The notes under the pieces: generated by a model
What the model was told of the DNA's origin: nothing
Seen by the model: the letters and a program-made list of their open reading frames with translations, nothing else
The model's database searches: none
In this document: positions 12,891 through 40,494 of the stretch, piece after piece
Layout: each line of letters begins with the position of its first letter
How positions within the stretch are numbered: the stretch's first letter is position 1
Translations under genes and position numbers: made by a program
Assembly: GCF_017115105.1 (NCBI RefSeq)
Contig: NZ_JABXKH010000052.1
Coordinates: forward strand, 1 to 64,000
DNA length: 64,000 nucleotides
Direction: 5' to 3'
DNA from: Nostoc sp. NMS2
GTDB taxonomy: Bacteria > Cyanobacteriota > Cyanobacteriia > Cyanobacteriales > Nostocaceae

Positions 12891-14162
12891 ATGGGTTATT
12901 ACATCGCTCCCCGCTTTTTGGACAAACTGGCTGTCCACATCACTAAAAACTTTCTAAAGCTTCCTGGCGTGCGAGTTCCCGTGATTTTAGGTATTCACGG
13001 ACGCAAAGGAGAAGGCAAAACATTTCAATGTCAATTAGTCTTCGAGAAAATGGGTATCGAGGTAACTCATGTATCTGGCGGCGAATTAGAAAGTCCAGAT
13101 GCAGGAGATCCAGCGCGGTTGATTCGGCTGCGCTATCGGGAGACAGCAGAACTGATCAAAGTACGCGGCAAAATGTGTGTACTGATGATTAACGATTTAG
13201 ATGCGGGGGCTGGACGCTTTGATGAAGGCACTCAATATACTGTAAATACGCAGTTGGTGAATGCCACACTGATGAATATTGCTGATAATCCCACAGATGT
13301 ACAGTTGCCTGGAAGTTATGATTCCACGCCTTTACATCGTGTACCGATTATTGTCACAGGTAATGATTTCTCTACTCTCTATGCACCGTTAATTCGGGAT
13401 GGACGGATGGAGAAATTCTACTGGGAACCAGACAGAGACGACAAAGTGGGAATTGTTAAGGGGATTTTTGAACCGGATGGACTCTCACAAAAGGAAGTTG
13501 AACAGTTAGTTGATACTTTTGTCAATCAGTCCATTGACTTTTTTAGCGCTTTGCGATCGCGCATTTATGACGAACAAATCCGCAACTACATTCATAAAGT
13601 AGGTTTTGAGCAAGTATCCTTGAGTGTGGTTAACAGCACTGAAGGGCCACCAGAATTCAAAAAGCCAGATTTCAGGCTGTCTCATTTAATCGAGTCTGGT
13701 AACTTCCTCGTTGGCGAACAAAAACGGGTGGAAAATTCCCATTTGGTTGATGATTACAATCGACTCAATCGAGGTAGAAATTCTCAATCTGCACCACCTG
13801 CTGCGATACCAATTAATCAGCCGTCAAAGAATGGTGCAACTCAAGAAGCAAAAACTAATGGATTCCAAAAACAGGAAGTAGCGAGTCCATATTTGAGCAT
13901 AGATACACAAGCTCAAATTAGGCAACTATTGTCTCAAGGTTACAAAATCAGCATTGAACACGTAGATGAGCGCCGCTTCCGCACAGGTTCATGGCAAACT
14001 TGTGTTCATAGCCATATTGATGCAGAGTCTGATGCAATATCAAACTTAGAAGCAACTCTGGCAGAATATAGCGGTGAGTACGTGCGCTTAGTAGGTATCG
14101 ATCCGAAAGCCAAGCGGCGGGTAGTGGAGACGATTATTCAGCGTCCAGATGGGAAAAATTAG
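12891..14162 (+). CDS. rca: RuBisCO activase with C-terminal small-subunit-like domain
   Basis: Rca is an AAA+ ATPase that removes inhibitory sugar phosphates from RuBisCO. The 423-residue protein starts MGYYIAPRFLDKLAVHITKN. Walker A is GRKGEGKT (37-44), Walker B is CVLMINDLD (96-104), followed by sensor regions and the DGRMEKFYWEP block. After a Pro/Asn-rich linker (about 295-330), residues about 330-415 (SPYLSIDTQAQIRQLLSQGY... to VETIIQ) resemble RbcS, as in CcmM. In heterocystous cyanobacteria this small-subunit-like domain is known to bind RuBisCO and direct activase to carboxysomes. The frame extends to a GTG at 12870, but the ATG matches the conserved start. Located downstream of rbcLXS, as in Anabaena. 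Confidence 0.97.
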   Translation: MGYYIAPRFLDKLAVHITKNFLKLPGVRVPVILGIHGRKGEGKTFQCQLVFEKMGIEVTHVSGGELESPDAGDPARLIRLRYRETAELIKVRGKMCVLMINDLDAGAGRFDEGTQYTVNTQLVNATLMNIADNPTDVQLPGSYDSTPLHRVPIIVTGNDFSTLYAPLIRDGRMEKFYWEPDRDDKVGIVKGIFEPDGLSQKEVEQLVDTFVNQSIDFFSALRSRIYDEQIRNYIHKVGFEQVSLSVVNSTEGPPEFKKPDFRLSHLIESGNFLVGEQKRVENSHLVDDYNRLNRGRNSQSAPPAAIPINQPSKNGATQEAKTNGFQKQEVASPYLSIDTQAQIRQLLSQGYKISIEHVDERRFRTGSWQTCVHSHIDAESDAISNLEATLAEYSGEYVRLVGIDPKAKRRVVETIIQRPDGKN

Positions 14163-14290
14163 GAATAGATAATTGAGAAAGATAAGAAAGAGCGATGTCT
14201 ACGACGGTCACTGAGCGAAGTCGAAGTGCGGGCTACGCCTACGCTTTTGTCAATCTCAAACAACTGGAAAAAATATGCTTCCTCAATTTC

Positions 14291-14348
14291 AGGACTTACG
14301 CAAAAAATAGCCCAAACCTTGATTTACCAGTAGTTTTACGTAAGTCCT
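14291..14348. repeat. Miniature inverted-repeat element, AGGACTTACG family
   Basis: AGGACTTACGCAAAA (14291-14305) is mirrored by TTTTACGTAAGTCCT (14334-14348), one mismatch in 15, with 28 bp between. A diverged, longer relative is at 25332-25422. It is non-coding, located between rca and the convergent secreted-protein gene, and could act as a bidirectional hairpin terminator. Confidence 0.75.
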
Positions 14349-14374
14349 AAATTTGATAGCTGAATCCTTATACC

Positions 14375-15127
14375 TTAACTACAGGTAGCAGCTGAAGCCG
14401 AGTTAACCCTTGTTAAATCGCCAGTGAATACTGCTGTATATATATAAGGTGATGCACCAGAGCAAGTCATGGAGTTGGTATTAGTGCGGCGGGGAGTCCA
14501 CCATGACTTTGCTTGCACAGTTAAATTTGTGCCATCCCATGATAGGCTTCTGACAACTAAAGAGTTTGTATTTCCATTATCCGCCTTTTTAGCAGTTAAA
14601 AATGTAGCATAGTAAACCTCGCCATTGGCTGGATTAATCCGGGCTATAACTGCGACTTTTGGCCCGCCTCCACTACCATAGCTAGACAACCAACGCCCAG
14701 TTGCAAAGCGGCGAAAATCACTACCGGTCTGACTGCCAGTGGCAGAGTAAACGCCATATAAAACATTCCCCCCACTCCAATACAATCCGTAGCCTGTACC
14801 GTCGTCATTTGTTGTTTCGTAATCAGTCCTACACCATGTTTTAATCCCATTATTAAAACGGATAGTTATAGGATTTTTGTTATTAGATGAGACTTGCTGA
14901 TAACCAATGTAAAAGGCTGAACTTCCATTAACTACTCTGGGGCCATTTTTAGCTTTGATTGTCGCTTCACTATCATTACAACTGAATGTTACAGCACTAC
15001 CGATAGATGAATTTACCGTTTCGGCAAAAGCTGGAGGGACTTTTTGGGTGATGACTAAATCAGCTACTAGTAATGCAGATAAAGATAAACCTGCCAAATA
15101 CTTCTGCAATTTTTGAGAATAAATCAT
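14375..15127 (-). CDS. Exported protein of unknown function (Gly/Ser/Asn-rich)
   Basis: From the ATG at 15127 the protein has 250 residues. Residues 1-36 form a signal peptide (MIYSQKLQKYLAGLSLSALL..., cleavage expected after AFA). The mature part is rich in Ser, Thr, Asn, Gly and Tyr, with four cysteines (FSCND, TWCRTD, MTCSG, ATCS) that could form two disulfides, and aromatic turns such as YGLYWSGGNVLYGVYSATGS. I do not recognise a domain; the pattern suggests a beta-rich extracellular protein. An in-frame extension upstream to 15199 exists but would hide the signal peptide. It stands alone and is flanked by long non-coding DNA on the 5' side. Confidence 0.7.
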   Translation of the reverse strand: MIYSQKLQKYLAGLSLSALLVADLVITQKVPPAFAETVNSSIGSAVTFSCNDSEATIKAKNGPRVVNGSSAFYIGYQQVSSNNKNPITIRFNNGIKTWCRTDYETTNDDGTGYGLYWSGGNVLYGVYSATGSQTGSDFRRFATGRWLSSYGSGGGPKVAVIARINPANGEVYYATFLTAKKADNGNTNSLVVRSLSWDGTNLTVQAKSWWTPRRTNTNSMTCSGASPYIYTAVFTGDLTRVNSASAATCS

Positions 15128-15329
15128 GATATAAATCTGCCGAGAAATTGTAAGGGAAAAACACCGTATTACTATAAACTCTAATGAGAGTTTAGACAAG
15201 TAAAATTGTTGAAAGTCGCAGATAGCAGCATTTTCAGCATGACAAAAAATGATGCTAGACTACAAAATGCATAACATAATATGCATTAAATTGCATGGTA
15301 TTAACTGTATATAAACCTTTCTTATCGAA

Positions 15330-15377
15330 AGAGCATCATTGAATAGATTGATTCTGAATTCAGAATCTAGATGCTCT
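15330..15377. repeat. Hairpin with 18-bp perfect palindrome upstream of the exported protein
   Basis: AGAGCATC (15330-15337) and GATGCTCT (15370-15377) enclose GATTCTGAATTCAGAATC (15350-15367), a perfect 18-bp palindrome. The GAATTCAGAATC core also begins the 270-bp repeats at 29330 and 54571. It could be the footprint of such an element or an operator for the divergent genes; neither is shown. Confidence 0.6.
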
Positions 15378-16117
15378 CTTAAAGATTAGTATTTGTTCCT
15401 TTTCCATCTCTCTGATTAGAAGCTTGAATCCATTGCTTTGAGTCGAGCCGATCTCAAGTCAGGTCTTTATAGAATATGTGATGTACGTTTTGGACGGGAC
15501 ATAGATATATTCCTTAAATAGCGTTCTAAAGTTAGTTTGGCTTAGTCAAGCTGTTTTCTGGTTCAGTAAAAATCGTGAATAATTTTATTTCTAATAAAAC
15601 TAATACATTAATCTGGGTAATTTCTCTTAATTCAGATATTGAATCTGGTTTTTTGGGCAATTGCTTATTAGTGATGAATATCACGATATTGGCTCGATTT
15701 CCTCTTATTTTTTCGATGCAGAGCGCGGGAATAACTGATTAGAGGCTCTGCCTCAAGCGATACATTGAGGCATCAACCTATATGAATGCATTCCCATACG
15801 GAGTATGGGAACGAGCAAAACAGCAAAACTTCATCAAGCTAGGTTTTTAGGACTTGTGTATACACCGTAGCCTTCTAAACGCTATGGAACAACTCCAATA
15901 CGGTTCAGTTAAGGCTAAAACTCTGCGATCGAAGTCAATTTTTTAACGAACCGCCAAGGCGCAGAGTCCGCAGAGAGAAAAAAGAAATGCTTAACCCAAG
16001 CGGATTGGGAACAACTCTACAAAACTTGTGTGTACACCTTAGTTGACAAGGAGAGGGTGCGCGACAGCACGGGTGGGGTATTTTCGGCTATTCTGTATTG
16101 GACTCAACCCAGAAGCG
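15378..16117. other. Gene-free spacer with repeat fragments
   Basis: No credible ORF. It holds CCCATACGGAGTATGGGA (palindrome, about 15792-15810), ACTTGTGTATACACCGTAG (15852-15870), a half element CCAATACGGTTCAGTTAAGG (15894 onward), a GGCGCAGAGTCCGCAGAGAG fragment (15955-15985), a second ACTTGTGTGTACACC (16026 onward), and the right end of a TATAGCGG-type element (TATTGGACTCAACC...AGCGCTAGAA, 16093-16124). It appears to be a graveyard of small mobile repeats. Confidence 0.6.
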
Positions 16118-16489
16118 CTAGAAATGCTGCTTCACCACGTCTAAGGGTGAACAATTCCAATAATCGATATGGGAGACAATCAAACCATCAGAGTTGAGAC
16201 CTAATTCACTCCAACCAGGAATAGAAATCCGTGGCTTCCAGGGGAGAGGAGTATTCCAACTGAGTGTCCACTCAGTTTTGATTGTGTCTCCTAAACGTTG
16301 AATATTATGTAAGTCCATCTTGGGATCTAAAAACCAAGTTTGGATAAAATTAATCATTTTTTGATAACGTTTAACACCACGAAATTTATTCAGTGGGTCT
16401 TGAAAATAAACGTCTGGAGCGTAAATGCTGTAAGTTTGATTGACTGGGAATCTTTGATAGTCTTCTTTGAGGATTTCAATGATATCCAT
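16118..16489 (-). CDS. DUF2358 family protein
   Basis: 123 residues beginning MDIIEILKEDYQRFPVNQTY. The blocks YAPDVYFQDPLNKFRGVKRY, PKMDLHNIQRLGDTIKTEW and the end HIDYWNCSPLDVVKQHF match DUF2358, a family of cyanobacteria and chloroplasts with an NTF2/SnoaL-like alpha+beta barrel. No enzyme activity is established. It is a cytosolic single-domain protein. Alone on its strand, with an inverted-repeat element immediately upstream (16524-16676), which may carry or interfere with its promoter. Confidence 0.85.
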   Translation of the reverse strand: MDIIEILKEDYQRFPVNQTYSIYAPDVYFQDPLNKFRGVKRYQKMINFIQTWFLDPKMDLHNIQRLGDTIKTEWTLSWNTPLPWKPRISIPGWSELGLNSDGLIVSHIDYWNCSPLDVVKQHF

Positions 16490-16523
16490 AATAATCGCTT
16501 TATATTCGATGTCCTGGCTGATA

Positions 16524-16676
16524 CAATAGGGTTCGGTTAAGGTTTTTTGATGAAAATTCTAGATCGCATCTTTGCGATAAATCATCACAAAGACGCGATA
16601 AATCGCCGTCTCTACAATAATCAGTCTTTCGTCTTGACGGCGATTTATCGCGTCTCTTGCTTTAACTATACGAACA
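16524..16676. mobile_element. MITE, CAATACGG family, copy A (right end degenerate)
   Basis: The left end CAATAGGGTTCGGTTAAGG and the downstream TTTTTTGATGAAAATTCTAG match copies at 21675-21809 and 51507-51640. The interior has the family's complementary arms GCGATAAATCGCCGTC (16593 onward) and GACGGCGATTTATCGC (16636 onward). The right terminal repeat is eroded to CTTTAACTATACGAAC. No transposase is encoded, so the element is non-autonomous. Confidence 0.72.
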
Positions 16677-16774
16677 AAACCCGCCTGCGCGGGTTAAAAA
16701 ACCTTAATTTCCTCTAGTCTGCGGAGGCGGACTTTGTTTCTGTAACTGTAAATTTCGTTCGCTTGGGCTTTTTG

Positions 16775-18016
16775 TTAACGCCAATGTTGGGGTATGTTCA
16801 GATTTTCCGGTAAGATTGTTGTGCGATCGCCAAATGCCTGTTCAATCTGCTGTAATTCTAGGTTCTCACATCCGCTCAAGTTTGCCCTAAAGAGATTAGT
16901 TTCTTGGAGGTTGGCATCTTGCAGATTAGCTGTACTCAGTAACACGCCTTCTAAGTTGGCTCCAGCAAGTTTTGCGTTTTGCAGGTTACTGCCAATCAGG
17001 TTTGCATCTTGGAGGTTGCTACCCTCGAAGTTGACTTCAAAGAGGTTGGCATCACAAAGAATTGCTCCTTCCAAGTTGGCATCACAAAGAGTTGCCCCTT
17101 CCAAGTTGGCATCACAAAGAATTGTCCCTTCCAAGTTGGCATCATAAAGAATTGCCTTTGATAGATTTGCTTTTCTGAGAATTACGCCTTGCAAATTGGC
17201 TTCTGAAAGGGTTGCCTTAGAGAGATTTGCTTCATAGAAGACTGACCCACAAAGATTGGTTACTGATAGGTCTGCCTCCGAGAGATTTGCTTGTGTAAAA
17301 TTCACCCATTGTAAGTTGGCTCCTACGAAAATCGCCCTAGAGAGGTTAGCTTCGGTTAAGTCTGCATTACTGAGGTCTGTATTACGTAAATCTAGTTTTT
17401 GATTTACCGGATCTTTATGTGAATCGCGTCGCCCAATGACAGTTATCGCTGTTTGAATATCTGTAGGAAGTTTTGATGATACCTGTGACTCGTCCTCATA
17501 TTTTTGATTTACCGGAGCATTTTCGCGGATAAAAGCAGCGAGAATTTCCATAATTGTCCAATGGTCTTTCGGAGAATCTTTGGCAATTCGTTCTAAAGCA
17601 TAAATTGCGGCAAACCGCGTTTCAATTTTTTCATTTCCTAGTTGTTCGATTGCTTTAGAAAAGCGTTCGGGAACAATTTCTTGTGGAGTTGGTTGCTTGT
17701 AATTGATACTAGTTACTATGTTGTTATCCCAAGCTAGTGTCCCAGCAAGGATTTGCGTTAACAGGCTCTGATTCTCATCCAAAGATAGTCTGGATGTATA
17801 GTAAGCATTAATAATTAATGCTAGTCCTCCAATAATTATCGCAATAGTTGTTAAAGCTTGAGTGATATATTCTATTTTTTCATTATTTGAAAATCCTTGA
17901 ATATTTTCAAATAATGAAAAAATTAGAGTTAAGGAAAAAATAAATATAACTGAGATAAATACCAACAAAATCGTGAGTCCATTTGTCTTTATGAAAGACA
18001 TGTTATAAGTCTTCAT
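16775..18016 (-). CDS. Membrane-anchored pentapeptide-repeat protein
   Basis: 413 residues. Two N-terminal hydrophobic segments (about 11-35 and 52-72, the latter GLALIINAYYTSR) anchor the protein. Residues 110-190 are a helical block typical of cyanobacterial pentapeptide proteins (ERFSKAIEQLGNEKIETRFAA, IYALERIAKDS). Residues about 205-395 are A(D/N)LxX pentapeptides such as TDLSNADLTEANLSRAIFVG and form a right-handed quadrilateral beta helix. AAGGAG six bases before the ATG fixes the start. Function of such proteins is mostly unknown; roles in protein-protein docking have been proposed. It follows the two paralogous membrane-protein genes on the same strand after a 277-bp gap containing a repeat. 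Confidence 0.9.
   Translation of the reverse strand: MKTYNMSFIKTNGLTILLVFISVIFIFSLTLIFSLFENIQGFSNNEKIEYITQALTTIAIIIGGLALIINAYYTSRLSLDENQSLLTQILAGTLAWDNNIVTSINYKQPTPQEIVPERFSKAIEQLGNEKIETRFAAIYALERIAKDSPKDHWTIMEILAAFIRENAPVNQKYEDESQVSSKLPTDIQTAITVIGRRDSHKDPVNQKLDLRNTDLSNADLTEANLSRAIFVGANLQWVNFTQANLSEADLSVTNLCGSVFYEANLSKATLSEANLQGVILRKANLSKAILYDANLEGTILCDANLEGATLCDANLEGAILCDANLFEVNFEGSNLQDANLIGSNLQNAKLAGANLEGVLLSTANLQDANLQETNLFRANLSGCENLELQQIEQAFGDRTTILPENLNIPQHWR
17040..17160. repeat. 30-bp coding tandem repeat in the pentapeptide gene
   Basis: Four consecutive 30-bp units of the type TTGGCATCACAAAGAATTGC plus CCTTCCAAG each encode two pentapeptides (CDANL EGTIL-like). Units differ at only one to three bases, much less than the rest of the repeat domain, indicating recent expansion of the helix by whole coils. 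Confidence 0.8.
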
Positions 18017-18198
18017 ATTTGACTCCTTACGGAAATAAATTTAGGTTGATTTTAAGAGCATCCGTAAATATCTGATAGCGTACAAACACGGAACTACTTA
18101 ACATATCCTTAAATGTACTCCATAGAAATTATCTATAAAATCTCTGATAACTTATTTTGCAAACATCCTCTGAACTGCGGGGCTTTTTTGGCTTGTTT

Positions 18199-18276
18199 GC
18201 GATCGCAAAGACGCGATAAATCGCCGTCAAGACAAAAGACTGATTATTGTAAAGACGGCGATTTATCGCGTTTTCC
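18199..18276. repeat. MITE, CAATACGG family, copy B (core only)
   Basis: The arms CGCGATAAATCGCCGTC (18213 onward) and GACGGCGATTTATCGCG (18254 onward), with the AAGACTGATTATTGTAAAG loop, match the interior of the family. The outer CAATACGG repeats are missing or badly decayed (CTTAATTCCGCAATATG may be the right remnant). It lies in the spacer between the pentapeptide gene and its upstream neighbour and can form a strong hairpin, so it may end or weaken read-through. Confidence 0.65.
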
Positions 18277-18293
18277 CTTAATTCCGCAATATG

Positions 18294-19001
18294 TTAACGC
18301 AAACCTAAAATTTCGGAAATCGCCGCTACAATATCTAGATAAAAGTTGCCTTTTACAGCGCGAAATAACTCAAATTTAGAGTCAGGGGCACCAAAAAACG
18401 GTCTGAGAAACCATCCTAACTGCATACCAACAAAGGCATATAGCAATAACCAGGATCTTAAAATAGTGGTGCGCGTTTTTTTGCCGACTTCATCTTGTTG
18501 AGAAAGTAATTGCATTCCTTCATACAGGAATTTCACACCAAAGATGCCTGTAATACCAAAAATTAATACATTCAACAGTTTGAAAAATTGATAAGAATCG
18601 GGTGTAGTGATCAGAAAAAATAGCGTAACTGGTGCCAAGCTAAATAAAAGTACGCTAATCACTGATACAGATGTGAGTAATACAACGAAATGCTGTAAAA
18701 TACTGCTCCGAGAACCAAACAAAACATTAAAAAAGAACAACGTCGGGAAACAAATAATCAGTGTGATTAAATAGAATACCGGAAGTTTAATAGCACCGGA
18801 TAATGCCTGTGCCCAACTGTGGGATGCACCGATAATTGCTCCATAAAGAGCAAAGAAGATAGAACTAGATACAAACAAAGAACTGATTTTATTTTGTAAT
18901 CTTATTCCCATCCGAATCTCTTCCAAGAAAGACTGGCGATCGCGCAATAAATTAACCAAAACACCAAATTGTTGAATTCCGCGATTTTTCTTATCAAGCA
19001 T
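18294..19001 (-). CDS. Multi-pass membrane protein, second of a tandem paralogous pair
   Basis: 235 residues starting MLDKKNRGIQQFGVLVNLLR. Five to six hydrophobic segments follow a basic, amphipathic N-terminus; characteristic blocks are IIGASHSWAQALSGAIKLP, YLITLIICFPTLFFFNVLFGS, LFSLAPVTLFFLIT and YAFVGMQLGWFLRPFFGAP. It is about half identical by eye to the neighbouring product at 19119-19826. The layout resembles Yip1-like or inner-membrane scaffold families, but I cannot assign one. The unbroken pattern of gene duplication beside the FAD oxidoreductase suggests the three act together. 117 bp separate it from its paralogue. Confidence 0.78.
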   Translation of the reverse strand: MLDKKNRGIQQFGVLVNLLRDRQSFLEEIRMGIRLQNKISSLFVSSSIFFALYGAIIGASHSWAQALSGAIKLPVFYLITLIICFPTLFFFNVLFGSRSSILQHFVVLLTSVSVISVLLFSLAPVTLFFLITTPDSYQFFKLLNVLIFGITGIFGVKFLYEGMQLLSQQDEVGKKTRTTILRSWLLLYAFVGMQLGWFLRPFFGAPDSKFELFRAVKGNFYLDIVAAISEILGLR

Positions 19002-19118
19002 AAATTTGTATGTTCTATATTTTGCTGAATTACTAATGACTAATTATTCATTGATGGTACATAGCAAGCAGATTTATCCGTGGGCTAAATCCAAAATCCA
19101 AAATCCAAAATTATCTGA

Positions 19119-19826
19119 CTAATTACGGATTCCAAAAAGATAGCCAATAGCTTGAATAACGCTCAAATAGAAATTACCTTCTCTTTCGCGGAATAGCTCA
19201 AAGGTAGAACCCGGTGTGCCAAAAAACGGTCTGAGAGTCCATCCTAACTGACTACCTACGAAAGCGTAAAGAAATAGCCAAAATTGTAAAATTTTCTGGC
19301 GTGTCTTGCTACCTTCATTATCTTGTTCTAAAACTAAACTCGTGGCCTGATATAAAGACGAAACACCAATAAATCCAGTTAATGCGAATATGAATACATT
19401 TAACAGAATTAAAAATTGGTAATTATTCGTGGTAATCAAGAAAAACAGTGTAATTGGTGCAAAGCTAAATAAAAGTACGCTTGTGACTGAAACCGCAGTC
19501 AATACTAATGCTAAATGCTGTCCAAAAGTCCGCTTGGAACCAAAAATAATATTAGCAAAAAACAACGTTGGGATACAAATTAGGAGTGTGATTAAATAAA
19601 GGGCTGGGAGTTTAATGGCGGAAGACAAAGCTTGCATCCAGCTATGGTATGCACCAATGATTCCGCCATACGCGGCGAGAAATAAGGAACTGCAAACCAG
19701 CAGAGAAATGATTTTAGTTGGTAATCTCGTACCTTGGCGAACTTCCTCTAGAAAACCTGGGCGATCGCGCAGGAATCCAATCAGCACTGCAAAGTATTTG
19801 ATTCCTAATGATTTCCGTTCAATCAT
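19119..19826 (-). CDS. Multi-pass membrane protein, first of a tandem paralogous pair
   Basis: 235 residues from the ATG at 19826 (MIERKSLGIKYFAVLIGFLR), preceded by GAGGATAAC; a TTG 15 bases earlier is less likely. Blocks IIGAYHSWMQALSSAIKLPA, YLITLLICIPTLFFANIIFG, LFSFAPITLFFLIT and YAFVGSQLGWTLRPFFGTPG parallel the paralogue exactly, and both products are the same length. Predicted five to six membrane segments, no catalytic motif seen. The start lies 23 bases after the stop of the FAD oxidoreductase gene, so the two are almost certainly co-transcribed. Function unknown. Confidence 0.8.
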   Translation of the reverse strand: MIERKSLGIKYFAVLIGFLRDRPGFLEEVRQGTRLPTKIISLLVCSSLFLAAYGGIIGAYHSWMQALSSAIKLPALYLITLLICIPTLFFANIIFGSKRTFGQHLALVLTAVSVTSVLLFSFAPITLFFLITTNNYQFLILLNVFIFALTGFIGVSSLYQATSLVLEQDNEGSKTRQKILQFWLFLYAFVGSQLGWTLRPFFGTPGSTFELFREREGNFYLSVIQAIGYLFGIRN

Positions 19827-19849
19827 GTTATCCTCACACAAGTAAAATT

Positions 19850-21397
19850 CTAAGTTTCATCTGAGTAATCACCGCCAGAACCATACTTCCAGGCATCAAC
19901 CAAACGATGCCAATAATATTGTTGTTCATTTGGTTGATTCTTAATCCATGTTTCTAACATTGGATTTAGCCAAAACAAGGCAGTATATACACCTAAATTA
20001 CCGTAATGCACCATCCAATCTAACAAACTTCCTAAACCTACTTGCGGAATGATCTTGGCAACTATTCCCGGATGAGATAAACCAGTTTTTAACAGTGTTT
20101 GTGTTAGTGCTGAAAACTGCACTATATCCTGTAAAAATGGCTTTAACACTGGTGTACCCAACTGTTGCATTTCCTGAAATACCGCCGAGAGGAGTTGGTT
20201 AATTTGATCTGAGGCAATTTTTTGATTTATACCAACACTCATCGCCCTTTGAAACAACCAAGTAACACTTAGACTCGGCTGATAGGGTTGCAGCAGCGCT
20301 AAAGCTTTTGCAGATAATTGTTCTGTTTCTAGCGCTTCGTAAATGCCATAAGTTAAACGCTTCAGGTGACGCACCATTGCCCAAAAACCACCAAAACTCA
20401 AGGGAGACTGACTACCACTGCTGTCTCCGGCTGGTAGAATGCGATTCCAAGGGGTTTTGAGAGGACTTTGACGATAGGTAGGAAAAAAGCCAAATAACGC
20501 CCGTTGAAATTTTAGTTTGCTCAATTCCACTCCCTGATATTCTGGTAGGAGACGCAGATATTCTTCAAATAGAGCTTCTAAACTCAAACGTTGGGGATGT
20601 GCATCCATGTAGGTAAACAAGTAAGTAGTTCTGCCATCCCTGGCTGGGAAGGCTTCCCAGAAGTACTGACATTGATTTTGCAAAGGTGTAAATGATAATA
20701 ACAAGTCGCCTGAGCTATTTTCCGCAAAACCTTGGGCACAACTTCCCACAACCAAGCACAGCGCGTCTGGTTTTTTGCCTTGGCGTGCTTGTTGGGTGAT
20801 GGGTGAAAGATGTCCCATCGCGTCAATTAATAACCGAGTTTTGAATTGGTTATTTACCATCACCCCATCTGGATGAACCACCGCTTCAGTAAAGGGTGTA
20901 TTTTCTAACAACTTTCCACCCAATGCGAGAAATCGCGTTTTCAAGGTAGCCAGTAGATAAACTGGATCTACGCCGATATTCAAGACATCTTCTACCCAAA
21001 CTTCTGTACCGCCATCAAAACTAACTCGCGCCGGGTTATATTGAGTTGCGATCGCAGTTTCTAATTCATCCTCAGTCAGCAAGTTTAATTCCACAAATAC
21101 ATCTAATTCTTTCCGAGAGATATTCCACTCTTGTTCCCTCCCCCGTAAAATACCCCGTTCCATCAATGCTACCCGCAGTCCTTTCACCGCCAAGGCGCAA
21201 CCAATTAAAATACCTAAAGTGCCACCACAGATCAGCACATCGAAATCGACAACGCCTAAAGGCTGTTGACTTTCTTTAACTAACGTTGGCACAGGTGCGG
21301 TGTTTTCTCTCAAAGATGTGAGGATGCGATCGCCTTGACGCAACCCTCCTAAAACATCACCTGGTAATTGGGAAAGAATTTCTTCAGTTAAAGACAT
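19850..21397 (-). CDS. FAD-dependent oxidoreductase of the lycopene-cyclase/halogenase-like superfamily, role unknown
   Basis: 515 residues from the ATG at 21397 (MSLTEEILSQLPGDVLGGLR); 18 bases more are open upstream. About 40 residues precede the FAD-binding motif DVLICGGTLGILIGCALAVK (near residue 53). LIDAMGHLSPI and RILPAGDSSGSQSPLSFGGF (second FAD-binding GD motif, near residue 325) complete the flavin fold seen in geranylgeranyl reductases, lycopene cyclases and flavin halogenases. The halogenase WxWxIP motif is absent. The C-terminal 150 residues are helical. Similar proteins occur in cyanobacteria and plants without a proven function. It heads an apparent operon with two paralogous membrane proteins, suggesting a membrane-associated (perhaps lipid- or pigment-related) reaction; that is inference. 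Confidence 0.82.
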   Translation of the reverse strand: MSLTEEILSQLPGDVLGGLRQGDRILTSLRENTAPVPTLVKESQQPLGVVDFDVLICGGTLGILIGCALAVKGLRVALMERGILRGREQEWNISRKELDVFVELNLLTEDELETAIATQYNPARVSFDGGTEVWVEDVLNIGVDPVYLLATLKTRFLALGGKLLENTPFTEAVVHPDGVMVNNQFKTRLLIDAMGHLSPITQQARQGKKPDALCLVVGSCAQGFAENSSGDLLLSFTPLQNQCQYFWEAFPARDGRTTYLFTYMDAHPQRLSLEALFEEYLRLLPEYQGVELSKLKFQRALFGFFPTYRQSPLKTPWNRILPAGDSSGSQSPLSFGGFWAMVRHLKRLTYGIYEALETEQLSAKALALLQPYQPSLSVTWLFQRAMSVGINQKIASDQINQLLSAVFQEMQQLGTPVLKPFLQDIVQFSALTQTLLKTGLSHPGIVAKIIPQVGLGSLLDWMVHYGNLGVYTALFWLNPMLETWIKNQPNEQQYYWHRLVDAWKYGSGGDYSDET

Positions 21398-21615
21398 CGG
21401 GTTTGATTCCAGCAAAGTTACTAGTATTGATCGTATCTTTGCTGGAGCAACGCCTTATCCCAAACCGAATAATTTTGCGATCGCAGGCAATAATTTATTA
21501 CCAGCTTCAACCAGCGATGCGATCGCAGGTAAGCCTGTAAATATCCCTTTCAACATGGTGATAGCTGTCTTCGCCGTCTTTTGCTTAGTCGATTCTTGGG
21601 GGTTTTTTTAACCTT

Positions 21616-21924
21616 AGTGGTTGTTTGAAAAGTATTTCGCTGTGACTATAAACACTTTTAGCTCCCCCCTAACCCAATACGGTTCGGATAAGGTTTTTTG
21701 ATGACACGCCCTAGATCGCAAAGACGCGATAAATCGCCATCTTTACAATAATCAATCCTTTGTCTTGACGGCGATTTATCGCGTTTCTTGCCTTAACCGA
21801 ACCGTATTGTCCCCTAACCTCCCTTAAAAAGATAGGAATCGGAATCAAAGTCCCCCTTTTTAAGAGAAATTTAGAGGGATCTAAAACTTTTGATACTGAC
21901 AAGAAGACCTTTCAAGCATCCTCT
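21616..21924. mobile_element. MITE, TGTTTGAAAAGT family, interrupted copy
   Basis: Left end AGTGGTTGTTTGAAAAGT (21616-21633) and right end ACCTTTCAAGCATCCTCT (21907-21924) are diverged inverted repeats of the family best preserved at 49722-50042. The interior has the CCCCCTAACC...TTAAAAAG...CCCCCTTTTTAAG module. It is split by the complete CAATACGG element at 21675-21809. Confidence 0.7.
21675..21809. mobile_element. MITE, CAATACGG family, copy C (complete, nested)
   Basis: 135 bp bounded by CAATACGGTTCGGATAAGG and CCTTAACCGAACCGTATTG, almost perfect inverted repeats. The interior arms GCGATAAATCGCCATC and GACGGCGATTTATCGC make the whole element a long hairpin. The 10 bp on each side, CCCCCTAACC (21665-21674) and TCCCCTAACC (21810-21819), match in nine positions and look like a target duplication. 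It is inserted in another MITE. No coding capacity. Confidence 0.85.
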
Positions 21925-22289
21925 AAATTTGACTATGCCCTTACCAAGGTATTTGTATCATTATGACAGTGAAACTGTATTAGCAAATTCCATAAGACTC
22001 TTGCTTAATAAATAGGGGGTAAAACCCCTCAAGCCTTAACTTTTTACCTCTGCTAAAGCAAAAAAATACCCAAATTAGAAAATTTAAAAACCTGCCAAAA
22101 TGGCAACCACATTGTGATTACCCAAGTTAAATTGTACAAAGATAAACGACTTCAAGGGTTTTTTATCAGGGACTACCATACAAGCAAATCCATTTTGTAA
22201 AATACTATTTATTTACTAAGTGATTTACAAAAAACTATCTCTACTAAATTATTTGCAGAGTATTTTTATCAGCAGATAAATATCAATAA

Positions 22290-22468
22290 TCAGGTTTGGC
22301 ATTTGCTGCAACAGGAATATTAAATACGTATGGACGTTGTTGTTGAGATACGCATTAGCCCCTAAATAACGGGCAACGTCTGTATACATTCCTGTTCACT
22401 TCAGCAGCAAATGGCAGAGTGGGAGTTTGAAAGCTAACTGATATGCTTCCTCCCACTCTCTTTTTATT
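22290..22468 (+). ncRNA. Candidate structured non-coding RNA with rod-shaped fold and its own terminator
   Basis: CATTTGCTGC (22300-22309) pairs with GCAGCAAATG (22404-22413). The adjoining AACAGGAAT (22310-22318) pairs perfectly with ATTCCTGTT (22388-22396), leaving a 7-nt bulge on the 3' side. GACGTTG (22333-22339) pairs with CAACGTC (22374-22380), and CCC/GGG (22359-22361/22371-22373) closes the tip. Immediately after comes a terminator, AGAGTGGGAG (22416-22425) with CTCCCACTCT (22450-22459), then CTTTTTATTT. Only the plus strand has the T-run. AATAAT at 22285-22290 could be a -10 box. The long bulged rod plus terminator is reminiscent of 6S RNA but identity is unproven. No ORF lies inside. 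Confidence 0.62.
22416..22467 (+). terminator. Rho-independent terminator of the candidate ncRNA
   Basis: A perfect 10-bp stem, AGAGTGGGAG with CTCCCACTCT, encloses a 24-nt loop and is followed by CTTTTTATTTA. It is one of the best intrinsic terminators in the window, yet no protein gene precedes it on the plus strand for more than 8 kb, which is the main argument for an RNA gene here. Confidence 0.78.
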
Positions 22469-22525
22469 TATAGGAGTAGGGCGTGTTTTTAAAGTCTTAA
22501 ATACCCCCAACCCCTTTTTTTAAGC

Positions 22526-22757
22526 TACGGTGTACACACAAGTTTTTGAGAGTTGCCTCACAGCGTTTAGATCCCCCCTAACCCACGCCAGTCGCTCCAC
22601 TACAGCGCTTCGCGCATCCTGCGGCGGGGGAGACCCCAAGACCGCGCTGGCTCCCCTTAAAAAAGGGGGGAATAGGAGTCAAAGTCCTCCAATTTATCGG
22701 AGGATTTAGGAGGATCTATAACATTTTGGTTTTGTAGAGAGATGTGTGTACACCGTA
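22526..22757. mobile_element. MITE-like element with TACGGTGTACACAC ends
   Basis: TACGGTGTACACAC (22526-22539) and GTGTGTACACCGTA (22744-22757) are perfect 14-bp inverted repeats 232 bp apart. The interior carries GATCCCCCCTAACCC, the GC-rich palindromic CGCGCATCCTGCGGCGGGGG block and TTAAAAAAGGGGGG. The same end sequence occurs singly at 15852-15870, 16026 and 39339-39357. No coding capacity. Confidence 0.7.
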
Positions 22758-22891
22758 CCCTTTTTAAGGACGGACAAAAACCCCTCATCCCCCTTTTTAA
22801 GGGGGATTGAGGGGGATCTAATTTAGGGACAAAAACCTCTCAAAGTCCCCCTTTTTAAGGGGAATTTAGGGGGATCTAATTCTATGTTTAC
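22758..22891. repeat. Two copies of a CCCCCTTTTTAAGGGG repeat after the SLH-fasciclin gene
   Basis: GGACAAAAACCCCTCATCC... and GGGACAAAAACCTCTCAAAG each precede CCCCCTTTTTAAGGGG and end with GGGGGATCTAAT. They are tandem, about 65 bp apart, and each forms a strong hairpin; together they may terminate transcription of the minus-strand gene that ends at 22892. Confidence 0.6.
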
Positions 22892-24610
22892 TTAGAAGTT
22901 GTAGCCAAGTCCTAATAGTAGCCCTACGTCAGTTTGATCCATAAAAGCAGCGTTTACAGAACCCGTCACCGTAAATCGAGAACCGAGAGGAACGTCTACA
23001 CCACCAGTTAGCAGTAATCCAAAATCAGTATCGTTATTAACTTCAATGGCTACACCAGCACCGATAAAAGGAGATATAGAGAAGGTTTCGCTACCTACCT
23101 CACCGGCTGCGCGAGGTCTAAAATCCAAAGTCAAGGGAACCAGAAACTCTGTATTGTCCCCAAACAGCACTGATGGTCGGACTGAGATATTGCGTGTCAG
23201 ACCAATTTTACTGATTACTGCAAAGTTACCATCGCTCAACGCTGTATCGTTGCCGCTCAAACCAATGTTACCAGCAACCCCTATATAGCTAGGGCCACCA
23301 AGAGTAGTTCTACCTGGTGTAACAGCAGGCGTTGTCCCATCTGCATTTCCTGTTGGTGGTTGATTTAACTGACTGATATTAACATCAGGTGGGACAAGGA
23401 CTTGGTTAATTGCATGGATAACCCCATTGCTAGCTTTAACATCCGCCTGGATAACTCTGGCATTATTCACCGAGATTTGATTGCTAGCGCGATCGATCTG
23501 AATATTTACAGGTTTTTCTTCAGCAGTTTTCAATTCCCCAGCCGTGAGTTGACTAGAAGTGACTGCACCAGGAACGACATGGTATGTCAAAATCTTAATC
23601 AATGCTTGTCTGTTTTCTGGTTGCTGTAACTGCTGTAAGGTAGCAGCAGGTAAAGCAGCAAATGCTTGATCGGTGGGAGCGAAGACTGTATAAGGGCCTG
23701 GCTGTTGAAGAACATCTGTTAAGCCAGCTGTCTTTAATAAAGAAGTCAGAGTTGTTAGAGAACTACTGGATGAAGCAAGAGTCACAATATCGCTACCGGT
23801 TTGAGTTCCACCGACAACATACTGACTAGCTGGAAGATTGCTAGCAATGGGTTGCACTCGTCCCTGTTTAGCCAAAGCTTGATATAAGAGTGCCGCAGCT
23901 TCAGCACGAGTTAGAGGTTGTTGGGGATTGAGTTGTTTTACATCTGGATAATTAACAACAATATTGGATTGGGTTGCACTAGTAACACTAGCAACCGCAT
24001 ACTGCGGAATACTTGAAGCGTCGGTGTAGTAGGTGTTGAGGTCAGTACTGGTTCCAGTGCTGCTAGCAGTTAAGCCCAAACCACTCGTTAAAGCAACGAG
24101 CGCCTGTACCTTGGGTATTTGTTGATTTGGCGAAAACACGTTCCCAGGATAGCCTGCCAAAAATCCAGTTTCGTAGGCGTACTGAATTACAGAAGATGCC
24201 CAATAGCCAGCAGGAACATCACGAAATCCACCTGCGCTTAATTGCCGAATTCGGTTTTGGTTAGGGAAAGCTTTTTGAATCAGGGCGGCAAATTCAGCAC
24301 GAGTAACGGCTTGATTTGGTCTGAAGCTGCCATCAGGAAAGCCAGCAATCACGTTATTGTCAGCTAGGGCTTGAATGAAGGGACGCGCCCAATAATCTGA
24401 GGAAACATCAGATAAGTTAACTGTTGAAGTTGGTGATGGTGTTGCAGATGGTGTTGCAGGAGATGGTGTTGCAGGGGATGGTGTGTCAGATGGAACGGTA
24501 CTTTGAGATGAAGCTGGGGTAGAAATTACGATGGGAGTTATTGTAGCAGCTGTCATTCCCACAACTAGTAAAGCAACCCTTGCTGATGGCCAACGAAAAA
24601 AACTAAACAT
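22892..24610 (-). CDS. SLH - fasciclin - outer-membrane beta-barrel fusion protein
   Basis: 572 residues. Residues 1-36 are a signal peptide (ending ASSQS), then a Pro/Ser/Thr linker. Three SLH-type repeats occupy about 65-245 (DYWARPFIQALADNNVIAGF, GYWASSVIQYAYETGFLAGY, and TRAEAAALLYQAL), which in cyanobacteria bind the peptidoglycan-linked polymer. A FAS1 domain follows at about 275-405 (GPYTVFAPTDQAFAALPAAT, YHVVPGAVT, NGVIHAINQVLVP). The last 130 residues alternate hydrophobic and polar residues and end in GLGYNF, with the terminal Phe typical of outer-membrane barrels. The combination would bridge wall and outer membrane and display an adhesion domain. GAGGATATTTCC precedes the ATG. It stands alone. 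Confidence 0.88.
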   Translation of the reverse strand: MFSFFRWPSARVALLVVGMTAATITPIVISTPASSQSTVPSDTPSPATPSPATPSATPSPTSTVNLSDVSSDYWARPFIQALADNNVIAGFPDGSFRPNQAVTRAEFAALIQKAFPNQNRIRQLSAGGFRDVPAGYWASSVIQYAYETGFLAGYPGNVFSPNQQIPKVQALVALTSGLGLTASSTGTSTDLNTYYTDASSIPQYAVASVTSATQSNIVVNYPDVKQLNPQQPLTRAEAAALLYQALAKQGRVQPIASNLPASQYVVGGTQTGSDIVTLASSSSSLTTLTSLLKTAGLTDVLQQPGPYTVFAPTDQAFAALPAATLQQLQQPENRQALIKILTYHVVPGAVTSSQLTAGELKTAEEKPVNIQIDRASNQISVNNARVIQADVKASNGVIHAINQVLVPPDVNISQLNQPPTGNADGTTPAVTPGRTTLGGPSYIGVAGNIGLSGNDTALSDGNFAVISKIGLTRNISVRPSVLFGDNTEFLVPLTLDFRPRAAGEVGSETFSISPFIGAGVAIEVNNDTDFGLLLTGGVDVPLGSRFTVTGSVNAAFMDQTDVGLLLGLGYNF

Positions 24611-40400: not shown

Positions 40401-40494
40401 TCGTGTCTGTGATTATGTGTAGAATCCCCGAAAGTAAAGTGTTATAAGCGTTTTACAGTGGTCGGGTTATTTAGGTGTGAGTGAGAGTAAAAAC

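Follow-up and report, generated by a model that had tools for sequence, protein, structure and literature searches.

The DNA analysed here is a 64,000-nucleotide stretch of the Nostoc sp. NMS2 genome (contig NZ_JABXKH010000052.1), which we will call the window. At positions 22290–22468, between an FAD-oxidoreductase-like gene that points away and an SLH-fasciclin-like gene that faces it, a first-pass annotation had proposed an orphan, rod-shaped RNA gene with its own intrinsic terminator, starting near 22290 and with no plus-strand protein gene for more than 8 kb before it. This last point stands, as the only plus-strand ORFs of at least 80 aa in 14162–22290 encode 117 aa and 88 aa, the former lying wholly within a 413-aa minus-strand ORF and the latter overlapping the end of a 235-aa minus-strand ORF. 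No tRNA or tmRNA genes were found in the window. C-/G-rich repeat-like stretches (aagggg-aattta-ggggga-like) adjoin the RNA gene at 22500–22880, and a part of them (ATTTAGGGG) is complementary to the loop core of the RNA, possibly by coincidence. The features of the locus are as follows:

22076–22139, plus strand: promoter-like block (A-rich stretch, palindrome, spacer and −10), from the jump in same-genus identity and the position profile
22093–22107, plus strand: palindrome TGCCAAAATGGCA followed by AC, putative activator site at about −41 from the predicted start, from motif counts
22128–22133, plus strand: putative −10 hexamer TAAATT, 35 nt past the start of the palindrome, from counts among the copies
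22140–22295, plus strand: predicted 5' leader, its start inferred from the −10; the first ~35 nt are conserved and the rest varies in length between lineages
22285–22294, plus strand: A/T-rich stretch (AATAATCAGG) just before the rod, conserved in the position profile of 136 copies
22300–22413, plus strand: rod, with helices 22300–22309/22404–22413, 22310–22318/22388–22396 and 22328–22345/22367–22385, from fold z-score and covariation
22358–22369, plus strand: unpaired C-rich apical loop GCCCCUAAAUAA, putative seed, from its conservation
22416–22465, plus strand: intrinsic terminator with a 10-bp stem, an inner stem with a conserved loop (UGAUAUGC) and a U-run, from fold, covariation and loop conservation

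The minimum-energy fold of 22290–22468 reaches −62.3 kcal/mol, compared with −40.3 ± 3.9 in 200 shuffled sequences, none of which folds as well (z −5.66). The two outer stems of the rod appear in this fold exactly as first drawn, and the claimed 10-bp terminator stem is likewise present at 22416–22425/22450–22459, directly followed by the T-run CTTTTTATTT. A third stem, which had been placed at 22333–22339/22374–22380, does exist, but it was drawn too short and really extends over 22328–22345/22367–22385 with one bulge. The fourth, proposed at 22359–22361/22371–22373, is absent: residues C22359–C22362 are unpaired in the consensus and 96–100% conserved in 54 diverse copies, forming an open apical loop, and two of the three G's assigned to this stem pair with the opposite strand of the rod. 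Nine of the ten terminator stem pairs were counted in the same 54 copies, with 99.0% of cells paired; a simple terminator pattern scan misses this terminator because it permits only loops of 3–8.

An alignment of orthologues from across the window's family contains the compensatory changes expected of a conserved structure. From the hits of a covariance model built from 24 copies (R1) we used 146, leaving out truncated hits, weak reverse-strand hits and the tandem copies at loci L052 and L044; these gave 136 distinct copies and, after thinning at 90% identity, the 54 rows of a MAFFT alignment, which excludes loci fetched later, including those from deeper-branching genomes. The consensus has 43 pairs with 95.7% of cells paired. 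Double-sided changes occur in 26 of the 43 pairs (13.3 ± 1.9 in shuffles) and in 120 cells (38.6 ± 8.1), and neither value is reached in any of 500 shuffles, although such a test can be inflated by relatedness and by the structure having been derived from the same sequences; pair counts and pair types agree in direction. Sliding the partners by 1–3 columns lowers the pairing to 34–57%, and the 24-copy alignment agrees, with 13 of 48 pairs double-changed and one of 500 shuffles as high. Mean conservation in the 54 copies is 0.91 in the loop core (22358–22369) and 0.87 at paired positions, against 0.75 for all unpaired positions and 0.65 in the 5' internal loop, and in the inner loop of the terminator G22440, U22442 and A22443 are invariant. 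The apical loop and the terminator inner loop are, on this conservation, candidate contact sites.

Almost every sampled genome of the window's family, which we take to be that of the heterocyst formers, carries the RNA, and hardly any beyond it does. With the 179-base query, blastn detects relatives in 170 of its 217 genomes, and R1 matches 202 of the 217, covering 55 of 56 genera; in the window's own genome it matches this locus alone. When the 15 negative genomes, of which four have a completeness below 90%, were re-searched in a smaller set, none matched at E 0.001 and two were marginal (E 0.0115 and 0.0483). An order-wide sample of 388 genomes gave 68 with a match, 67 within the family and one marginal outside (E 0.0066), and a class-wide sample of 388 gave 23, with one marginal match outside the family (E 0.0068). 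Among the matches listed, the named carriers confirmed by R1 are Nostoc, Anabaena, Dolichospermum, Cylindrospermum, Fischerella, Scytonema, Calothrix and Chlorogloeopsis; a further copy lies at 3633242–3633411 of G103:C1. One genus, g7, stands out in that six of its eight genomes (G012–G016 and G019) lack a match despite a listed completeness of 100%, whereas one match each is present in G017 and G018, and this gap may reflect loss or divergence of the RNA. To look for an origin in mobile elements or viruses, the 179-base query was run with blastn against 72,556 plasmid and 50,697 phage records, which gave no match, and the terminator pattern had none in IMG/VR. A pattern scan of genome contigs did list at least eight non-cyanobacterial records (Microbacterium, Agrobacterium, a Lachnospiraceae MAG, L163 and others); since none of them matched R1, we read these as chance.

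Where does the gene begin? Identity to the window among 30 same-genus copies, taken in 20-nt bins, rises from 0.40 to 0.92 at bin 22076, stays at 0.75–0.99 up to 22455 and falls to 0.70 in bin 22456–22475 and 0.37 beyond. Judged by this profile, the conserved unit is longer than first reported, from about 22076 to about 22465. The start originally placed near 22290 is thus probably not the start of transcription, as a conserved promoter-like module lies ~200 nt farther upstream; an additional start, or a 5' end made by processing, may lie near 22296, and the A/T-rich stretch at 22285–22294 could be a second −10 or an RNase processing site. The module is built around the palindrome, present as TGCCA-N3-TGGCA upstream of 129 of 136 copies; six of the remaining seven have less than 250 nt of upstream sequence, and the seventh is L070. 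L192 and L070 appear to be one contig; at L192 the palindrome and the 5' block are found ~1.2 kb upstream of the rod, with a 311-aa ORF between (L192:313-1501). The looser form TGCC-N3-5-GGCA occurs within 400 nt upstream in 128 of the 129 copies for which 250 nt or more of upstream sequence is available, compared with a background of 35 occurrences in 204,769 bases of 20 loci, which themselves bear the element. After the palindrome come AC (128 of 129 copies), the consensus GTTAAATT at +33 and then a conserved AGATAAACGACTTCAAGGGT block; the putative −10 hexamer at +35 from the palindrome fits TAnnnT in 128 of 129 copies and reads TAAATT in 104. If transcription starts ~7 nt after this hexamer, as we assume, the centre of the palindrome falls near −41, where class II activators bind. 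We therefore read the palindrome and TAnnnT as a putative activator-driven promoter, giving a predicted transcript of about 22140–22464.

In the window's genome the strict pattern TGCCANNNTGGCAAC has a single occurrence, at the RNA gene. A sigma-70 consensus scan of 21500–22900 omits the proposed promoter, which lacks a −35 hexamer, and lists two other sites (3.1 in shuffles), one of them on the plus strand at 22224–22252. The distance from palindrome to rod is 190–210 nt in 76 of 129 copies and 127–139 nt in 19 (range 96–347), and the predicted length to the terminator is 310–324 nt in 74 of 125 copies and 242–260 nt in 20 (range 215–461). A hairpin predicted at the 5' end of the leader is not supported: it has no pairs with double changes and does worse than shuffles, as judged on a set of 48 drawn from 69 thinned leader segments, from which the second paralogue class and some close rows were left out. 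The promoter pattern is found in 116 stretches of IMG/VR, about chance level by a rough estimate, and the full forms of the palindrome, searched as strings, had no occurrences among the best-matching open-licence papers.

The genes around the RNA vary. Among the 136 copies, many of them with cut flanks and all with neighbours named by eye from sequence, we found alpha/beta-hydrolase-like (53), small membrane-protein-like (49), DUF4112-like (49), ddl-like (45) and YihY-like (36) genes, most commonly in the order ddl and membrane protein, both on the strand of the RNA, then the RNA, then hydrolase, DUF4112 and YihY facing it. Other contexts include rubrerythrin-like (13 copies) and transaldolase-like (9) genes, and an aroC-like gene at L036. 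Since the RNA persists while its contexts change, it appears to be kept without a fixed partner gene, and since at L036, as in the window, the gene before the RNA is directed away from it, there is no read-through parent at those loci. By row count of the R1 search, 152 of the 202 genomes have a single copy and 50 have two to nine. The largest array, at L300:2300-7600 (G193), consists of nine tandem copies at ~570-bp spacing with similar spacers, each with the palindrome, the first copy being degenerate (E 3.2e-7); four copies each are found in G192 and at L052.

The view that this is an orphan RNA gene with its own terminator is therefore borne out by orthologues with compensatory changes throughout the family, in varied neighbourhoods. 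The suggestion that it could be an undescribed Nostocales RNA also holds up: at gathering score Rfam 15 has no match in the window or at ten related loci, and a permissive scan of 22200–22520 gave five matches at E 2.2–4.3, all far under their cut-offs and none of them to RF00013. In the open-licence literature we found no paper tied to the RNA. No ORF in the transcript predicted for the window exceeds 19 aa, so an ordinary-size protein-coding gene is not seen there. ORFs of at least 30 aa occur in 60 of 129 copies, and the 12 longest vary in sequence and place, with a few close relatives alike. The RNA is apparently non-coding but may encode a very short peptide. Taken from sequence comparison, then, this is a real gene for a structured RNA with a conserved promoter-like region and a terminator, new as a family in terms of Rfam 15.

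What could the RNA do? Comparison between genomes establishes its structure, terminator, boundaries, conserved upstream module and independence from neighbours, and to these we add an inferred start site, activator and loop pairing. We propose, at slightly better than an even chance, a stand-alone gene for a trans-acting sRNA, driven by an activator and pairing through its C-rich loop. A putative dimeric activator would bind the palindrome at 22093–22105, centred about −41, and RNA polymerase would start near 22140 from the TAAATT −10 box, cross the variable leader and the rod and end near 22464, producing an sRNA of ~325 nt, possibly trimmed to ~165 nt. The rod would keep the C-rich loop (CCCCUAAAUAA) open, and this loop would most likely pair with G-rich segments in the mRNAs that it targets. 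A perfect 12-nt complement to the loop is found nowhere in the genome except at the RNA itself, and with at most one mismatch there are 34 places, the RNA included, compared with 166 for a reversed control, which we guess may be raised by a common repeat-like sequence. Two of these places were checked as mRNA targets and rejected as not generally kept: a site near the urtB start codon is retained in one of 13 same-genus relatives and one near the start codon of a kinase gene exactly in two of five, in a search of this one 12-nt stretch with at most one mismatch. A one-mismatch complement (GTTATTTAGGTG) also lies at 40466–40477 of the window (L244), immediately ahead of a 500-aa SLH/porin-like ORF. 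As no target was found, we hold the trans-acting sRNA with moderate confidence and regard protein binding as its main rival. A structured RNA that is present in 202 of 217 genomes, with its own conserved upstream palindrome, is likely to be important in a lineage noted for its multicellular forms and for fixing nitrogen, and the palindrome offers a handle for finding the regulator.

A protein-binding role would likewise conserve the loop. An RNA whose rod and loops CCCCUAAAUAA and UGAUAUGC titrate a protein, with tandem copies raising the dose, would account for the conservation of two distinct loops, of which the second sits in the terminator hairpin, for the amplification to as many as nine copies and for the limited target search having given no conserved mRNA. 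Sponges of the CsrB type carry a repeated binding motif within one RNA, whereas the RNA described here has no such repeat and is single-copy in 152 of 202 genomes, and we consider titration a tentative possibility. Its spread over 55 of 56 genera and its strong structure could also suggest a housekeeping or metabolic structured RNA of the clade, for example a part of a ribonucleoprotein, rather than a gene regulator; however, the promoter with its palindrome looks regulated and some complete genomes have no match, for example those six of genus g7, which makes such a role improbable.

The remaining two explanations are far less probable. A cis-acting leader or an RNA derived from the 3'-UTR of a neighbouring operon would fit the commonest context, where the RNA follows ddl and the small membrane-protein-like gene on the same strand, but the RNA has its own promoter-like module, its contexts vary, the gene before it is directed away both in the window and at L036, and in the commonest context the downstream gene faces the RNA; we therefore consider this very unlikely. 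The shape of the rod and a similar length had led to the initial comparison with 6S RNA, and a second, divergent 6S-type RNA would bind RNA polymerase as a mimic of the open promoter. 6S RNA has a symmetric central bubble, while the internal loops here are one-sided. Moreover, RF00013 finds the canonical 6S RNA of this genome on a different contig, at C174:60287-60470 with 107 bits, and has no match at our locus up to E 10, so we give this idea hardly any credence.

To return to the activator of the proposed sRNA, a similar promoter in other families may hint at the regulon in which it works. In one genome each of two other families, TGCCANNNTGGCAAC is found at five places (counting one palindrome twice, once in each reading direction; 3 for the reversed control) and at two (1 for the control), so that, with counts near those of the controls, it is not clearly enriched in either genome. 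Three of the sites (L303, L309 and L312) lie 84–102 nt before short ORFs with GG-leader-like starts, a label given by eye, since three of the peptides searched against Pfam had no family and none of five searched against NCBIfam scored over the cut-off. For two of the three, the 3-kb locus also contains HetP-family genes (NF037966, E 5e-30 and 3e-36). Scored with a matrix of 114 Nostocaceae promoters from which the palindrome was excluded, L303 was equalled in none of 20,000 shuffles, followed by L309 (p 0.0029), L312 (0.016) and L310 (0.048, with no clear gene), and five readings of the four remaining sites gave p 0.29–0.95. The Nostocaceae promoters themselves have a mean score of 22.2 and a lowest of −3.0; only L303 (16.0) is comparable, L309 (−1.6) is at the lower edge of their scores, and L312 (−8.6) and L310 (−19.6) are below it.

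The minus strand of L303:1973-2428 encodes a HetP-family protein with a double-glycine-like stretch (ADLDYVEVVREKRAGVRGG), which resembles the putative cleavage motif of HetP-like proteins described in PMC3140520. At L310:1275-1530 (minus strand, G217) no clear gene comes after the palindrome and a GATAAT at the −10 place; what follows is a hairpin, then a stem resembling a terminator (fold z −1.9, equalled by 8 of 200 shuffles). This palindrome is 393 bp before another such site, itself ahead of a GG-leader-like peptide gene, and the element may be another small RNA that is controlled in the same way. According to the same paper, HetP-like genes often adjoin bacteriocin clusters (PMC3140520), and the double-glycine clusters with HetP-like genes are alike to our case in the similar promoter before GG-leader-like genes at two loci of other families, while differing in that those genes make peptides and not RNA. 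We treat the promoter likeness in these two genomes as a lead only. It would be compatible with the RNA being the non-coding branch of a regulon for peptide signalling or bacteriocins, whose activator serves double-glycine genes near HetP-family genes elsewhere and became devoted to the RNA in the heterocystous clade, which we regard as unlikely. If true, an RNA that is tandem-amplified in some lineages would tie peptide signalling to gene control in multicellular cyanobacteria, and the possible tie to peptide genes beside HetP homologues poses a testable question on the rewiring of such sites.

Among known systems, 6S RNA (RF00013, ssaA) is similar to the new RNA in being a rod with internal loops, and its match in the window's genome spans 184 nt; the new RNA differs in its separate locus, the lack of a model match, its one-sided internal loops and the terminator hairpin directly attached to the rod. 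NsiR1 is shorter and has a different promoter, and the new RNA is set apart from it also by being single-copy in three-quarters of its carriers (152 of 202). What the two have in common is that NsiR1 is a Nostocales sRNA encoded in tandem arrays, as stated in PMC3610870, which also gives start-site data for Nodularia spumigena CCY9414. By description, the new RNA may also be likened to the sRNAs predicted in Nostoc sp. PCC 7120, which in the available portion of Brenes-Alvarez et al. 2016 (PMC4734099, Table 1) have an intergenic start, an intrinsic terminator and homologues in heterocystous genomes only. Entries fitting in size or spread there are 39081f (246 nt, 23/27), 6274486f (169 nt, 26/27) and 4499448r (164 nt, 21/27), and, verified by Northern blot, 2462444f (258 nt, 24/27) and 268249f (340 nt, 18/27). 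That portion describes no structure or family for them, unlike for the RNA reported here, which may already stand as an unnamed line in a published table.
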